Assembly: GCA_021837545.1 (NCBI GenBank)
Contig: JAKBFR010000002.1
Span: 1 to 61,335 of the forward strand
Length of the DNA: 61,335 nt
Origin: Bacillota bacterium
Lineage (GTDB): Bacteria; Bacillota_A; Clostridia; Clostridiales; Clostridiaceae
Reading direction: 5' to 3'
This document shows, piece by piece, positions 1,696-54,976 of the stretch. Positions within the stretch are counted from its first letter, which is position 1, and the number at the start of each line of letters is the position of its first letter. The notes below the pieces were generated by a model that was not told the origin of the DNA, searched no databases, and saw nothing but the letters and a program-made list of their open reading frames with translations. The position numbers and the translations under genes are program-made.

Positions 1696-1820
1696 GTGAA
1701 ACTTTTCAGGTGGAGTTTTTATACTCCAGCTGAATTTAGTTGAACTTATCCAGGAGCGTGCAGCCGTTATCTCACACTTGAAGAAGAGGGAGTATTACGG
1801 ATGCTAGCTATCGGATAAAA
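1696..1820 (+). ncRNA. Structured interspersed element, copy A
   Basis: First of three related elements in the window (others at 13624-13817 minus and 48116-48260 plus). It begins GTGAAACTTTTCAGG and folds a hairpin (TTCAGGTGGAGT 1705-1716 with ACTCCAGCTGAA 1723-1734, one G-G mismatch). The conserved GAACTTATCCAGGA follows (1742-1755). An imperfect long stem then pairs AGCGTGCAGCCGTTATCTC with GGGAGTATTACGGATGCTAG, and TATCGGATAAA closes against TTATCC. No coding potential is evident. It could be a structured RNA or a non-autonomous mobile element of palindromic type; I do not recognise the family. Confidence 0.6.
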
Positions 1821-4066: not shown

Positions 4067-6712
4067 ATGGGCTATGATGAGAGTAACTTTATATATTTAA
4101 AAACAACTAGTATGGAAGAATATTATGATGAGTTAGTAAAAGCAGAACATATATGCGAATATTTTCCGATGATTACAAAAATAATCGTTAGAAAAGTAGT
4201 AGAAGGAATTCTGAAAAATATAGCAGAAGAACATGATATGGAGAGTAACTTACCTGCATTGAATTTACTTAATAATATTCAATTAAATCCTATTCTTTAT
4301 TTACCAAAAGAAATTTATAATTATATGAAGATTATATTGGATAATGGCTATGATCATGCTTTTCGTGATAATAAGAATAAAAAGACTTCTAAGCAGACTA
4401 TAGAAGTTTTAGAAATTATACATAATATTTTGTGCTGGTATCTTAAAAAAATAGAACCACAAAAAATGATATTAATTAAAGACTTAAGTTTTAAGGCTCC
4501 AAGTACTATTGAATACCAAGAAAAAGAAATTGATAGAATTAAAGAGGATATTCGATTAAAGGACCATCAGATTAATAATTTAAGGCAGAAGATAATTGAA
4601 TTAGGTAGTAAATCAAAGAGCGTAAGTGAGTTAAATAAAATTATAATAGCAATAAAGGAAGAAAAATCTTATTTAGAAACAGTAAAGGCTTTATTAGCTA
4701 AAAAGATGCAAATACAAAAAAATCAGGTATTGGATATAGAAAAGAATTATAAAATATATTTAAGAAAATTTGATGAGTTAAAAGAAATATGTAAAGAAAA
4801 TCAAGATTTTCTTTTTAATAAAGAAAGTCAAATTATTAAGGCTGAGATAGAAAAGCAAGAATTGAAGAATTTAGATGAAGAATTAGATGAATATGATGAA
4901 TCTATAAGAAGAAGAGAGGAATTTCTTGAGGATGAATTAAAAACAGTAAGGAAAGCGTATGAACACATAGTCACCTTAACTAACCAGTATCAAGACATTG
5001 TAGAAACTATAGAATTTTCATACGATAAGGAATTAGAAAAAATACTGGAGATACAAAAGAATAATGTCAAAATGGAAATTAACTTTGAAGATAGAATATT
5101 TAATGAGAATATAGTAAGTTATACTAAAAACATATCTGAAGCTAAAAAGAAAATAATAATTTTAAAAGAGATATTAAATGATAATATTAAGAGAGAAATT
5201 AAGTATGAGCCATTTTATAGAGGATTTCTAAGATTAGAAGATAAACAACTTAGAATTATTTATACAATGATTACCAATAGTAATACTACATCTAATTTTA
5301 TAAATAAATCTAAGGAATTACTATCAAATTTTAATGAAGACAAATTTTTAGAAGCAATAAATAAGAATCTAGAAGAATTAAAAAACATAGGTGATAATCA
5401 AATCCAATTGATTATATATTATAAATTAATGAAATTATCTCGGATTTATTTTGGTAATATATATAATAGAGCACAATTTATACATGTACTAGATAGCATG
5501 GTAGATAGAGCATATGAAATTCTAATGGTTAAAAAAGATTTTAATGGTAAGAAAAGAAAGTTAGATGCAATAATTACATATTACTTGGAAAAAATAATTG
5601 CAGATTTAAAAAATAAAAATAGCAAGATCAAAATAAGTGAAGAGTTAACAGATAAAATTTATAAAAACATTATAACATTAAAACAAAATGCAGAAAATAT
5701 AGAAAATGAAAAGATATATTATGATAAATTCAATTTATATAATATGTCAGAGACCACACTTAGAACATTTATAAAATCACAGCCATTTACTTTTTTATCA
5801 ATAATGGTAGATTTAGGAGGAGTTGCTTCATATAAAGAAATTTCTAGCATTATATTTGAAGTTGAAAATTTGATGGCAAAAAGAACTTCAATTAAAGGGC
5901 ATAATGAAGAGACGTTGCCAATAAGTTTTTCAAATGGATATTTTATTATTACTTTATTTTTATCTAGTGGAGCTATCTCTTTAAATCAAAAAGAACAAGA
6001 AGAATTATTGCCACTATTAATAATGACAATAACGAGTATAGATTTAACAGCAAATGATGGAGATGTTAATTTAAAGAATTACAACAATATTATTAAATTG
6101 TGGAAGATTAAGCGACGAAAATATAATGATATGTCTATAGAAAAGGAAGATAAAGAAAGTGAATTAGAGGAATTGATAAAAGAAAATCAGGCATTAAAAA
6201 TTAATTGTGAAGAGTTATTAAGGACTCGTGATATATTATCTGATAAATATAATAATTACAAAGAAGACTTTAAGAAAATTATAATGAATTCAGACAAAAG
6301 AATTCTTTTGCCATCATTTCTGAATTATGATGATTTACGTAATAAAAAAGAAGTAGCTGAAGAACATATTAATGAGTCTAAAAATAAATTTGGGACACTA
6401 AAAAGTATACTTTCTCCAGAAGTATGGAAAGATCAAGCTAGTAAGTTCATTAATGAATCTAATATGATAGAATTAGAAAAATCATTAATTGAAGAAGCAA
6501 AACGAAAACCATACTTTAAAAAAGAATATTCAGTTTTTTTAGATTTAGAGGAAAAGATTAAGGAAGTTAATCGAGTAATAAATAAAGATAAAGATGATAT
6601 TAAAAATAAGGATTTGTTAATTGATAACATGAAAATTAAAATTAATGAGTTACAGAAGCAACTTAATATTATGAAAGATACCTATTTAGATATGGAAAAA
6701 GGATATAACTAA
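4067..6712 (+). CDS. Large coiled-coil protein of unknown function, DUF4145-like N-terminus
   Basis: The 881-residue product starts at ATG 4067 after GAGGGGAGG. Residues ~15-130 look like the helical DUF4145/HsdR-N type fold: AEHICEYFPMITKIIVRKVVEGIL, then LPKEIYNYMKIILDNGYDHAF and an ending helix with ILCWYLKK. The usual GNxAxH is replaced by GYDHAF. Residues ~155-320 and ~690-880 are long charged coiled coils (many Glu/Lys heptads). Between them is a mostly helical region with a conserved-looking patch (QPFTFLSIMVDLGGVASYKE) near residue 570. There are no Walker motifs, so it is not an SMC ATPase. No signal or membrane segment is seen. The domain assignment is inference; a role in DNA- or RNA-linked stress or defence is possible but unproven. 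Confidence 0.7.
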   Translation: MGYDESNFIYLKTTSMEEYYDELVKAEHICEYFPMITKIIVRKVVEGILKNIAEEHDMESNLPALNLLNNIQLNPILYLPKEIYNYMKIILDNGYDHAFRDNKNKKTSKQTIEVLEIIHNILCWYLKKIEPQKMILIKDLSFKAPSTIEYQEKEIDRIKEDIRLKDHQINNLRQKIIELGSKSKSVSELNKIIIAIKEEKSYLETVKALLAKKMQIQKNQVLDIEKNYKIYLRKFDELKEICKENQDFLFNKESQIIKAEIEKQELKNLDEELDEYDESIRRREEFLEDELKTVRKAYEHIVTLTNQYQDIVETIEFSYDKELEKILEIQKNNVKMEINFEDRIFNENIVSYTKNISEAKKKIIILKEILNDNIKREIKYEPFYRGFLRLEDKQLRIIYTMITNSNTTSNFINKSKELLSNFNEDKFLEAINKNLEELKNIGDNQIQLIIYYKLMKLSRIYFGNIYNRAQFIHVLDSMVDRAYEILMVKKDFNGKKRKLDAIITYYLEKIIADLKNKNSKIKISEELTDKIYKNIITLKQNAENIENEKIYYDKFNLYNMSETTLRTFIKSQPFTFLSIMVDLGGVASYKEISSIIFEVENLMAKRTSIKGHNEETLPISFSNGYFIITLFLSSGAISLNQKEQEELLPLLIMTITSIDLTANDGDVNLKNYNNIIKLWKIKRRKYNDMSIEKEDKESELEELIKENQALKINCEELLRTRDILSDKYNNYKEDFKKIIMNSDKRILLPSFLNYDDLRNKKEVAEEHINESKNKFGTLKSILSPEVWKDQASKFINESNMIELEKSLIEEAKRKPYFKKEYSVFLDLEEKIKEVNRVINKDKDDIKNKDLLIDNMKIKINELQKQLNIMKDTYLDMEKGYN

Positions 6713-13623: not shown

Positions 13624-13817
13624 TTTTATCTGATAGCTAGCATCCGTAACATTCCCATTTATATGAAACTCCTCTTCCTAACGTCAGAGGAGTAAGCGAT
13701 TCACACTAAATCATAGATTTAGGTTCCCTGCTTAACTGGGAGATAACGGCTGCACGCTCCTGGATAAGTTCAACTAAGATTCAGATGGGTATCAACCCCA
13801 CCTGAATCAAGTTTCAC
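13624..13817 (-). ncRNA. Structured interspersed element, copy B (expanded apical part)
   Basis: Minus-strand homologue of copy A. A 34-nt core starting TTGAACTTATCCAGGAGCG is identical to copy A, and the 3' arm ends ACGGATGCTAGCTATCAGAT. The 5' hairpin is longer (GATTCAGGTGGG with CCCATCTGAATC). The apical region carries two additional hairpins absent from copy A: CTAAATC/GATTTAG, and ACTCCTCT with AGAGGAGT. It lies on the same strand as, and ~100 nt downstream of, the HNH gene, with the HNH terminator between. Variable apical helices on a fixed core are typical of structured RNAs and palindrome-based mobile elements. Confidence 0.6.
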
Positions 13818-13850
13818 TTGATAACTTGGAATTTGCTTTGTTAATTAAAG

Positions 13851-19511: not shown

Positions 19512-20561
19512 TTAGCTTTTGTCATGAGCATTGGTATTTTCGTTTCCTCTAAATCCATAACTATCTGAAATAATTCTTCCAATTCCAGTTACCTTGCCTG
19601 TTATACAACCTCTACAATGAGCTGGTGTATCACCTGTGCATATTTTGCCTGGATATAGAGCATAAAGCTTTCTATATTCACCTTCAGTAACATTAGGCAT
19701 TACAACATTAGCACCACTTTGAAGTGCAACTATTCTACCATTTGGAGTTAAAGATTCCATTGCAGTTGTTGCAGGGATATTTATATCAGGAAGTATTAAA
19801 CGTGTTAACGCCATAACTTTTAGGGATAAAGTAAGATTTCCACCTTGTGCATCTTTTAAAGGAGTATCCTCATTAGGTATAAATGGACCTATTCCTATCA
19901 TATCTGCATTTATATCTTTGAAGAATAATATATCATTAGCAATAGATTCTAAAGTTTGATTTGGAAGGCCAACAAGAATACCACTTCCAATTTCATATCC
20001 TAAATCACTTAAGTTTTTTAAACAATTCAATCTTTCTTCGAAACTCATATTAGGATCCATATCTTCATAAAGTTTTTTATCTGTAGTTTCAATACGTATT
20101 AAATATCTATCAGCGCCAGCTTCTTTAAATGATTTATATTCATCATAAGTCTTTTCACCTAAGCTTAAGGTTAAGGCAACACCTAATTTTTTTATTTCTT
20201 TTACTATATTAGTCATTATTTCTTTAGTAAAGTAGTCATCTTCGCCACCTTGAAGAACAATAGTTTTATAACCATAACTAACTGCTTTTTTTGCAAAATC
20301 TAAGATTTCTTCTTGTGTTAGTCTGTATCTTTCAATATTTTTATTATCCCTTCTTAAGCCACAATACATGCAATTTCTTTTACATATGTTTGTAAATTCA
20401 ATTAACCCTCTTAAATGAACATAGTCACCTAGATATGTTTGACGAATTTCATCTGCTGCCTTAAAAAGTTCTTCATTTATATCATCATTTTGTAATAATT
20501 CTAATATTTCTTCTTTATCTAAATTATGAGTAATTTTAGCTTTTTCAATAAGTTTATTCAT
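19512..20561 (-). CDS. hydE: [FeFe]-hydrogenase H-cluster radical SAM maturase HydE
   Basis: Radical SAM enzyme that helps build the H-cluster di-iron subunit together with HydG and HydF. The 349-residue product has CKRNCMYCGLRRDN (the CxxxCxxC iron-sulfur site, ~residues 59-66), TIVLQGGEDDYFTKEIM, the GIGPFIPNEDTPL stretch typical of HydE, and the C-terminal GEYRKLYALYPGKICTGDTPAHCRGCI. BioB-type enzymes differ at these places. AGGAGGC lies 5 nt before ATG 20561. HydF and HydG are not in this window; its substrate hydrogenase may be the one at 46.6 kb. A degraded Rex-type site lies upstream at 20617-20634. Confidence 0.9.
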   Translation of the reverse strand: MNKLIEKAKITHNLDKEEILELLQNDDINEELFKAADEIRQTYLGDYVHLRGLIEFTNICKRNCMYCGLRRDNKNIERYRLTQEEILDFAKKAVSYGYKTIVLQGGEDDYFTKEIMTNIVKEIKKLGVALTLSLGEKTYDEYKSFKEAGADRYLIRIETTDKKLYEDMDPNMSFEERLNCLKNLSDLGYEIGSGILVGLPNQTLESIANDILFFKDINADMIGIGPFIPNEDTPLKDAQGGNLTLSLKVMALTRLILPDINIPATTAMESLTPNGRIVALQSGANVVMPNVTEGEYRKLYALYPGKICTGDTPAHCRGCITGKVTGIGRIISDSYGFRGNENTNAHDKS

Positions 20562-23469: not shown

Positions 23470-23720
23470 GTAACATCTTCCTTTCAAATTTAATAAGATA
23501 CGTTTTGATAGATTTGAATAAATTCTTATTAGACATATTATAAAATTTATCCGATAGCGAACTTCCACTAACATATTAGTGATAAGTGGAACTAAGCTCA
23601 TGAATATTGTGTCCCTTGTAAGTATAATTTTAATAAAAATATAGTGTGAAAAGTAAAATACACATAGCATCTAAAGTAACTGTTCAAAGATGCTGAAAGT
23701 CTTCTTATAATAATTATTAA

Positions 23721-48082: not shown

Positions 48083-48115
48083 TATTTAAAGGATTAAGAC
48101 TTCAATCAGTATAAA

Positions 48116-48260
48116 GTGATTCTTAACTTCAAATGGGGTTTTCTTAATAGGAATACAATTTTCTCAACCTGAAGATTAGAAGAACTTATCCAGGAACTAG
48201 AATCAGTAGTACTCTCACTTTAAAAAGTTGAAGTATTACTGATTCTAGTTATCGGATAAA
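48116..48260 (+). ncRNA. Structured interspersed element, copy C (perfect stem)
   Basis: This diverged homologue of copies A and B keeps GAACTTATCCAGGA (48182-48195) and TATCGGATAAA (48250-48260). The main stem is different in sequence but perfectly paired: ACTAGAATCAGTA with TACTGATTCTAGT, then GTACT/AGTAT-type extension. The 5' hairpin is weak (TTCA and GGTT with AACCTGAA). It lies directly downstream of the hydrogenase gene on the same strand. Full base-pair replacement against copies A and B argues that the fold itself is selected. Confidence 0.6.
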
Positions 48261-48264
48261 TTTA

Positions 48265-48299
48265 CTTGATTGGAGTTTTTTTAATTAGGCACAATCAAG
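48265..48299. terminator. Hairpin between the two structured elements
   Basis: CTTGATTG (48265-48272) pairs with CAATCAAG (48292-48299); the loop contains seven T. It may be part of either neighbouring element. Confidence 0.4.
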
Positions 48300-51444: not shown

Positions 51445-51596
51445 TAAGGTGAGAAATTAAAAGTGAGCAATCTTAAATCAAGTTATCCACTTAGTTTAAT
51501 TGCATTTTCTAAAATGCAATTTTAATTTCAAATTTATTGACTTTAGATTATACATACATTATAATAGTTTTAATTCAAAACATAGCACATTTGAAA

Positions 51597-51733
51597 ACTC
51601 GTATATACCTTGAATATGGCAAGGAGTATCTAGCGGAAGCCGTAAATTTCCGACTATGAGTGATATTGGTATAGGCTAAATCTAGATTTTTATTAGCATA
51701 TTAACATCACTTAGAAGTTAATGTGCTTTTTTT
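51597..51733 (+). promoter_or_regulatory. Guanine-type purine riboswitch and terminator of guaB
   Basis: The aptamer 51597-51661 has P1 ACTC/GAGT, P2 with loop AATATGG, J2/3 GTATCTAG, L3 CCGTAAA and GACTATG. The C in the GACTATG context, at the position pairing with the ligand, predicts guanine rather than adenine. The terminator stem GCATATTAAC with GTTAATGTGC and seven T (51696-51733) makes it an OFF switch: guanine should reduce IMP dehydrogenase synthesis. Confidence 0.93.
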
Positions 51734-51809: not shown

Positions 51810-53279
<1,470 letters not shown>

Positions 53280-53443: not shown

Positions 53444-54976
53444 ATGAAAAAAGATTTAGTTTTAGTTGTTGATTTTGGTGGACAGTATAATCAATTGATA
53501 GCAAGAAGAGTAAGAGAATGTGGTGTTTATTGTGAAATTATTCCATATGACTATACTATAGAAAAAATAAAAGCTAAAAATCCAAAGGGTATAATATTTA
53601 CTGGTGGACAAAATAGTGTTTATGGAGAAGATTCTCCAACTATAGATAAAAGAGTATTTGATTTAGGAGTACCTATACTTGGAATATGCTATGGAGATCA
53701 ATTAATTGCTCATATGCTAGGTGGAAAAGTTACAACGGCACCAGTAAGAGAATATGGTAAGACAAATATAACTTTAGATAAATCATCTAAATTATTTGAA
53801 GGAATTGAAACTAATGGAATTGCTTTAATGAGTCATACTGATTCTATACAAGAAGTACCAAAGGGCTTCAAAGTAACAGCACATACAGAAGTTTGTCCTA
53901 TTGCAGCTATGGAAAATGAAGAACAAAAAATTTATGGAGTTCAATTCCATCCAGAAGTTGAACATACTGAATTTGGACAAAAGATGTTAGAAAATTTTGT
54001 ACATAATATTTGCGGATTAGAAAATAGTTGGACTATGGCCTCTTTTGCAGAGGAAAAAATAAAAGAAATTAAAGAATTAGTTGGAGATAAAAAAGTATTA
54101 TGTGCTTTATCTGGTGGAGTTGACTCATCAGTTGCAGCAATGATCGTACATAAAGCTATTGGACATAACTTAACTTGCATATTTGTTGATCACGGTTTAC
54201 TTAGAAAAGATGAAGGAGATACAGTTGAAAGAGTATTCAAGAAAGAATTTGATATGAACATTAAGAGAGTTAATGTTGCTGATAGATTCCTTGGAAAACT
54301 TGCTGGAGTATCAGATCCTGAAACTAAGAGAAAAATCATTGGTGAAGAATTTATAAGAGTTTTTGAAGAAGAAGCTAAAAAGGTTGGAGATATTGATTAC
54401 CTTGTTCAAGGAACAATTTATCCAGATATCGTTGAAAGCGGAACTAAAACTTCAGCTACAATAAAATCACATCACAATGTTGGTGGACTTCCTGAAGATA
54501 TGCAATTCTCATTGATAGAACCATTAAGAGAATTGTTTAAAGATGAAGTTAGAGCAGTAGGAGAAGAACTTGGAATTCCTCATAAATTAGTATGGAGACA
54601 ACCATTCCCAGGTCCAGGTTTAGCTATAAGAGTATTAGGTGATATAACAGAAGAAAAGCTTGAAATAGTAAGAGAAGCTGATGCAATCTTTAGAGATGAA
54701 GTTGCAAATGCAAATCTTGATGAAACTATATGGCAATATTTTGCGTGTTTACCTAACATTAAATCAGTTGGAGTAATGGGAGATGAAAGAACATACTGCC
54801 ATACTATTGCTTTAAGGGCAGTAACTTCAAATGATGCAATGACTTCAGAATGGGCAAGAATTCCATATGAATTATTAGATTTAGTAAGTAGAAGAATTGT
54901 AAATGAAGTTAAGGGAGTAAACAGAATTGTTTATGACATAACAAGTAAGCCACCTGCTACTATAGAATGGGAATAG
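53444..54976 (+). CDS. guaA: GMP synthase (glutamine-hydrolysing)
   Basis: Converts XMP to GMP using glutamine and ATP. The 510-residue product has a class I amidotransferase domain with nucleophile Cys in LGICYGDQ (GICYG, near residue 82) and His-x-Glu in FHPEVEHT. The ATP-pyrophosphatase P-loop is [12 protein letters not shown] near residue 222. The C-terminal dimer domain ends in [12 protein letters not shown], as usual. AGGAGGA precedes ATG 53444. It is probably partly co-transcribed with guaB, and it ends at a strong terminator. Confidence 0.98.

Follow-up and report, generated by a model that had tools for sequence, protein, structure and literature searches.

Three copies of a structured element, here called A, B and C, lie in the window, by which we mean the whole 61,335-nucleotide stretch of DNA that was analysed. 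A first-pass annotation had proposed them from shared boxes on either side of a long stem, and both a covariance model, R1, and exact-string matches recover them at those places: GAACTTATCCAGGA has exactly three exact matches within the window, and TATC[GA]GATAAA then follows each. The locations stand, but the true elements reach further than had been drawn (1691-1814, 13630-13822 and 48111-48255), and ATAA directly follows every copy. The ends of copy A were placed by analogy with the empty sites of other copies. The features are as follows.

1691-1814, + strand: copy A, whole element, GTAA-AGTG ... TATCGG (R1 match 1692-1820, E 3.8e-29)
1694-1704, + strand: helix P1 of copy A, AAGT/ACTT, loop GAA (sequence; pair counts of helix 1)
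1705-1734, + strand: hairpin P2 of copy A, TTCAGGTGGAGT/ACTCCAGCTGAA (sequence; pair counts of helices 2-3)
1746-1818, + strand: helix P3 of copy A overall (sequence; pair counts of helices 4-8)
1746-1751 with 1813-1818, + strand: outer P3 of copy A, TTATCC/GGATAA
1755-1767 with 1797-1809, + strand: inner P3 of copy A; apical P4 at 1771-1792
1815-1818, + strand: target ATAA, 3' of copy A (sequence; right-flank counts of 80 copies)
13630-13822, - strand: copy B, whole element, ATCA-AGTG ... TATCAG (R1 match 13624-13821, E 5.0e-24)
23545-23637, - strand: probable decayed fourth copy (R1 E 0.0025, 22.3 bits; GCTATCGGATAAA)
48100-48282, + strand: terminator-like hairpin interrupted by copy C (arms 48100-48108 and 48267-48275, then a T run)
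48111-48255, + strand: copy C, whole element, ATAA-AGTG ... TATCGG (R1 match 48112-48261, E 1.5e-16)

The outer P3 helix of copy A takes in the target ATAA. Of the long-stem arms given in the first-pass annotation, those of copy C pair throughout (13 of 13 positions) and those of A and B at 10 of 13, the remainder being internal loops. Copy B carries an extra apical module of two hairpins and folds far better than its shuffles (z -6.0). The fourth place, where only the 3' part is recognisable, is probably a decayed copy, judging from its sequence. R1 has four other weak matches in the window: three fall on the places of A, B and C but in the reverse strand, and the fourth is at 20378-20447 (E 2.5).

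The neighbour genes differ among the three copies. Copy B lies between convergent genes, and copy C in the loop of the terminator-like hairpin downstream of an iron-hydrogenase gene. In G037, the nearest to the window among the genomes searched, the sites of A and C are filled and that of B is empty, the target there being GTAA. The site of C is empty in G039 and G032, where the terminator-like hairpin is intact (L217, L218). With three clear copies in these 61 kb, one of them in a terminator-like loop, such elements may reshape transcript ends. The window also holds a purine riboswitch aptamer (51579-51676, 63.4 bits), with genes for IMP dehydrogenase (51822-53279) and a GMP synthase-like protein (53444-54976) downstream of it, and an 881-aa open reading frame (4067-6712) without a Pfam match at E 0.001.

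Spread, structure and modules of the family

A pattern scan of genome contigs returned 48 loci, of which 28 were judged real by eye and 20 were dropped as chance matches. Real loci occur in Clostridium chromiireducens, C. puniceum, C. beijerinckii, C. uliginosum, Sporomusa acidovorans, Tissierella creatinophila and others. The 25-row alignment behind R1 holds copy A and, from other genomes, 24 more copies. An earlier alignment of 31 rows also had C, L004, L010, L020, L042 and L046, left out of the second for poor alignment at their 5' parts, and neither included L016. R1 matches all nine test genomes, which were chosen because each holds a copy, with up to 59 copies in one. Wider surveys, all giving lower bounds, matched at least 27 of 68 Clostridium genomes, at least 15 of them with ten or more matches (at most 50 candidates scored per genome), at least 28 of 391 genomes at class level (8 candidates scored) and at least 52 of 299 in the order of Fictibacillus (11 candidates scored); the Fictibacillus enclensis genome itself gave no R1 match. 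Searching clostridial genomes with a covariance model, as the first-pass annotation had proposed, uncovered a large dispersed family. Copies from the order of F. enclensis, which, like their genomes, we call Bacillales-type, have the same P1, middle (TTAGTTGAAC) and ends, and occur in tandem arrays. Taken together, A, B and C appear from sequence to be members of a large, gene-less, hairpin-built mobile family in many clostridia and bacilli.

No named RNA family covers the copies: Rfam 15 at the gathering threshold gave no match on A, B or C and no element match in 12 loci from Clostridium, Sporomusa, Tissierella and Bacillales-type genomes, a BsrC match in L331 lying outside the element. Lax thresholds added sub-threshold matches only (E up to 5 in the window and 2 in the 12 loci). 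BLAST of copy A returned five phage matches at E 0.4 and none in plasmids. A viral-contig match (L001), considered as a copy, was rejected as it is without P2 and looks coding-like by eye. Judged by title and opening of the abstract, no paper listed in our searches, which covered few subscription journals, describes the family.

Two plasmids carry partial matches. On the Klebsiella grimontii plasmid pNY3A, L333 4001-4072 matches the P1-P2 half of the Bacillales-type element over 72 bases (79%), in a record labelled Klebsiella; this reflects either horizontal transfer or a mixed assembly. On a Peribacillus asahii plasmid, L334 4001-4062 matches only the P1-P2 half of that element, directly behind a VOC-family gene.

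Elements range from 63 (L272) to 331 bp (L268), with about 130 bp typical, and consist of P1, P2 and a long P3/P4 that can take up additional hairpin modules. The two extra apical hairpins noted in copy B are indeed present, and recur in L101, L115, L119, L268 and, altered, in L271; since the domain recurs in other species, it is a module of the family. By pattern, at least 11 of 88 copies have a 20-nt hairpin module after GAACTTA; L270 has three of these in tandem. Orthologous copies differ in this module: copy A is without it and its counterpart in G037 has one more, while the G001 copy (L098) has it and those of G066 and G017 do not. The element therefore changes by gain and loss of hairpins in place. 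Modules lie inside modules in L268 and L270, and both copies repeat pieces such as TTTGCATAAGTTCGA.TAACCAAAT.

The covariation that had been noticed in three copies did not vanish as homologues were added. In the R1 alignment of 84 copies, which favours the model and contains many copies from which R1 was built, 40 of 46 pairs have changes on both sides. Adding two reverse-strand rows of palindromic copies (L003, L024) brings this to 42 of 46 in 86 rows, with covariation of 0.302 against at most 0.061 for slid structures. An unfitted MAFFT alignment of 25 copies has both-side changes at 18 of 46 pairs, and RNAalifold alone on the MAFFT alignment proposes 18 pairs, 5 with double changes and a covariation term of only -0.56. 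Cells with G.T outnumber those with A.C (153 against 95 in 84 copies); without the mostly-G.T pairs the counts are 123 and 93 (p 0.048), for cells that are not independent in an alignment fitted to the upper strand.

Among 104 copies examined, the P3/P4 arms are perfect over 21 to 26 bp in five and over no more than 10 bp in any other; 16 of the 104 were added by hand, including four of the five perfect palindromes, and one occurs among the other 88, so that five is not a frequency. Template switching converts a quasi-palindrome to a palindrome in one step. The gap in arm lengths is consistent with such conversion, which may explain some of the compensatory changes. Because conversion takes one step, compensatory changes need not be independent events. 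The earlier statement that pairing kept through sequence change implies selection on structure was too strong, as palindrome correction also yields compensatory changes. This is a warning for those who hunt RNAs: processes at the DNA level can give covariation in dispersed repeats.

Insertion sites, flanking tetranucleotides and orientation

To find empty sites, we took the two flanks of each of 15 sites, joined them and looked for the result in 59 genomes. Seven of the 15 gave clear ones (B, C, L007, L049, L100, L113 and L114) and three gave less exact ones (L003, L115 and L117); L028, L134 and L104 were left unaligned, none of the relatives of L032 gave a clear empty site, nor did L222 for L113, and none was seen for copy A. 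All seven clear cases show the insert bounded by the left flank on one side and on the other by ATAA or a close variant, such as GTAA for B in G037 and ATGA for C in G039. The element thus sits 5' of the host ATAA(A), which is 3' of TTTAT on the other strand. No clear target duplication emerged from the comparisons of empty and filled sites, and by eye there are no terminal inverted repeats. Anchoring succeeded for 80 of 88 copies; in these, CGG or CAG is followed on the right by ATAAA (A74 T74 A72 A77 A74), with random sequence farther out. The commonest bases of the left flank are A, T, A and A at positions -4 to -1 (52, 52, 34 and 58 of 64).

At the clear-empty sites the left tetranucleotide is ATCA, ATTA or ATAA. 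Where it is ATCA or ATTA, it is unlike most of the empty sites and matches the P1 partner 5' of the P2 foot. At position -2, L049 has T where eight of eight empty sites have A, and the filled copy has C where the empty site has A for L113 (2 of 2 clear), L007 (1 of 1) and B (1 of 1); for L100, three of five empty sites have A, one C and one G. The joined flanks of L049 are 98% identical to those of the relative with the empty site, and the left base already differs. The empty sites of L114, a copy outside the parsed set with partner TGAT and ATAA on both sides, are compatible with either reading.

The left flank follows the P1 partner across the 68 of 111 copies that could be parsed (43 could not). 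With partner TGAT (26 copies) it is xTCA in 16, xTAA in 6 and xTTA in 4, whereas with partner TT it is xTCA in none of 25 and xTAA in 24 (xTCA with TGAT, Fisher p 1e-6); the six TGAT copies with xTAA indicate that P1 pairing is not obligatory. In 20 high-scoring copies, ATCA occurs in 15 of the 16 with partner TGAT, three of which repeat copies of the first set, and L381 and L382 are the same insertion in two genomes. The left tetranucleotide therefore seems to be carried by the element. In ATCA and ATTA copies the left and right tetranucleotides are unlike, which argues against target duplication; in many other copies both are ATAA-like. On the right, ATAA pairs with the TTAT 5' of the P3 foot in the outer P3 helix. 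Bacillales-type P1 pairs the left ATAA poorly, and nearly all the copies of that type examined have TAA on both sides. Tandem copies have one ATAA in common (L005; L313, L314, L328, L329).

With respect to replication, 99 of 143 right-end matches over three genomes run with the fork (p 5e-6). For G037 the dnaA lies at 987405, and the terminus was taken as opposite. These counts use right-end pattern matches only. By genome they are 70 of 96 in G037, 21 of 33 on the main contig of G066 (4 on a second contig were dropped) and 8 of 14 exact matches in G017 (14 of its 36 matches were counted), and the bias is significant in G037 only (G066 p 0.14 and 0.80; G017 p 0.79). In a separate set of 88 copies, orientation shows no preference with respect to the upstream gene (45 of 87), and 54 of 86 are co-oriented with the downstream gene (p 0.02).

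Candidate movers and competing readings

PF01797, the Y1 transposase family, is absent from the copy-rich genomes G001, G002, G003 and G017, and also from G007, G008 and G009. Within Clostridium it is not associated with the element, as 18 of the 27 genomes that hold the element have it and so do 25 of the 41 that do not; it is also present in 19 of 20 genomes chosen among the 52 matching Bacillales-type ones. We searched 67 Y1 loci as returned by searches, two of which share the same gene. Across the 66 distinct loci (gene or fragment, mostly with 1.5 kb each side), R1 found none flanked on both sides. L253 (G037 C1:2166000-2170500) is the sole Y1 locus with real copies near, two downstream of the gene and none at the other side. 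There, a 232-aa Y1-type transposase open reading frame runs into pieces of a broken gene, presumably comM, and two similar element copies lie inside those pieces. We rejected this Y1 gene as a mover using these ends, as the copies sit in the broken-gene pieces and not at both Y1 ends. L020, considered as a gene-carrying element with its right half behind an open reading frame, was also set aside, the frame being 50 aa and by eye no transposase. In G037 and G066, 14 left-end matches have no right end nearby; by eye they are remnants or chance matches, and none is a gene-carrying element. Either the mover has been lost, or it is a protein of another kind; an autonomous copy may also lie outside the Y1 loci that the searches returned.

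We consider it moderately probable that the family is a non-autonomous mobile DNA element, moved as single-stranded DNA with paired ends by an enzyme acting in trans, its structure kept partly by template switching. Mobility is favoured by the empty sites, the tandem arrays, the insertion into a terminator-like loop and the finding that 15 of 68 Clostridium genomes have at least ten copies each. In the sequence of steps that we envisage, the replication fork would expose single-stranded DNA in which the ends would be recognised by their P1 and outer P3 pairings. A putative enzyme would cut at both paired tetranucleotides, join the ends and insert the piece at another ATAA, a use of guides akin to the tetranucleotide guides of IS200/IS605 transposases. 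Structure would persist partly since unpaired ends could not move and partly since template switching restores palindromes, and effects on neighbouring transcripts would be by-products. The cut rule (3' of TTTAT) suits HUH chemistry on the lower strand, whereas guide position and fork bias point to the upper, a misfit with any one known scheme.

Several other readings must be set against this. The first-pass annotation offered two, a novel non-coding RNA and a palindromic element moved by a Y1-type transposase; there is good support for a mobile palindromic element but not for a dedicated novel RNA. A transcribed regulatory or catalytic RNA family, dispersed because it regulates many genes, would account for the strong covariation, the weak G.T excess and the somewhat greater co-orientation with downstream genes. 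We nevertheless think it improbable given the different neighbours of the window copies, the random orientation to upstream genes, the positions of B between convergent genes and of C in a terminator-like loop, the two G037 copies within pieces of a broken gene, and the sites empty in relatives and tandem arrays. Slightly less improbable, and still unlikely, is a MITE of a DDE transposase with a 4-bp ATAA duplication whose left copy was later corrected towards the P1 partner. The mostly ATAA right flank, the commonest left bases, the TAA on both sides of nearly all Bacillales-type copies and the palindrome correction that seems to occur in the family suit it; the lack of terminal inverted repeats by eye, the high-scoring TGAT copies that already have ATCA left and ATAA right (15 of 16), and the left base of L049 that already differs from its close relative do not. 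Copying of an RNA into lagging-strand DNA by a reverse transcriptase in trans is compatible with a structured upper strand and the fork bias, but nothing specific favours it and we regard it as very improbable.

Two further readings concern the mover. A classical PATE of IS200/IS605, or a REP moved by TnpA_REP, whose Y1 transposase is lost or outside the assemblies, draws on the guide-like tetranucleotides 5' of hairpins, the absence of a clear duplication, the TTTAT target, the fork bias and the frequency of PF01797 in the chosen Bacillales-type genomes. Against it, only L253 of the 66 Y1 loci has copies near, and on one side only, copy-rich Clostridium genomes are without PF01797, and the element as written has its host tetranucleotide on the side opposite to that required by the IS608 scheme. 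The Y1 part of the first-pass proposal accordingly fits the ends and the strand bias but not the genome content, and we hold it to be a tentative minority reading. To a similar, doubtful degree we entertain Bacillota-wide single-stranded DNA elements with polarity mirrored relative to IS608, in which the 3' host tetranucleotide would be read by a guide 5' of P3, the element's own 5' tetranucleotide would have a second guide, and the enzyme would be no known Y1. This mirrored geometry makes a non-Y1 mover worth a test.

Comparison with known systems

In IS200/IS605 elements, PATEs and REP/TnpA_REP systems, a guide tetranucleotide just 5' of the foot of subterminal hairpins contacts the cleaved tetranucleotide, and IS200/IS605 leaves no target duplication and uses the lagging-strand template (PMC6006769, PMC7290912). 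The family resembles these in its guide-like tetranucleotides 5' of hairpins, which pair with the putatively cleaved ones (P1 TGAT-ATCA; outer P3 TTAT-ATAA). It is unlike them in having no Y1 gene flanked by element ends among the 66 loci, a host tetranucleotide that is 3', a 5' one seemingly carried, and ends that are longer and modular. The IS200/IS605 arrangement, with the target on the left and an element-borne right tetranucleotide, does not describe the element as written; read on the other strand the target agrees, but the guides are then 3' of the hairpins. REP/TnpA_REP systems have GTAG or GTGG at the hairpin foot (PMC6006769), whereas in none of the 68 parsed copies does either precede the P2 foot, where TT, TGAT, TAAT, TAGCT and others occur instead.

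BOX of Streptococcus pneumoniae is modular and dispersed, with a variable number of an internal structured unit; copies are inserted into one another, some are expressed, and mobilisation has been proposed via terminal inverted repeats like those of ISSpn2 (PMC3049150). The likeness to our family, by description only, is in modularity, dispersal and nested insertions; unlike it, BOX is described, in that account, for streptococci. REP and stem-loop surveys (PMC3733652, PMC2267715) include Clop-1, Clot-1 and Clot-3 (PMC2267715), which are 74 to 93 bp long and come from C. perfringens and C. tetani; our family may be identical with one of these.

Another close description is that of bcr1 of the Bacillus cereus group, reported to be short, structured and intergenic, with 11 to 130 copies and a mobility tied to TTTAT, possibly resembling site-specific recombination (PMC6542083, PMC3446304, PMC2267715). 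The family shares these traits as described (short, structured, intergenic, multi-copy and TTTAT-linked), a likeness of descriptions and not of compared sequences. No B. cereus group plasmid is among the matches listed when two Bacillales-type copies are searched by blastn against plasmids. Structured repeats such as bcr1 have been described as confined to a small group, bcr1 to the B. cereus group, whereas the family here spans Clostridium, Sporomusa, Tissierella and the order of Fictibacillus. Because it is recognisable over so wide a range, its ends, target and structure can be compared across great evolutionary distance, and what moves TTTAT-linked elements becomes a testable question.
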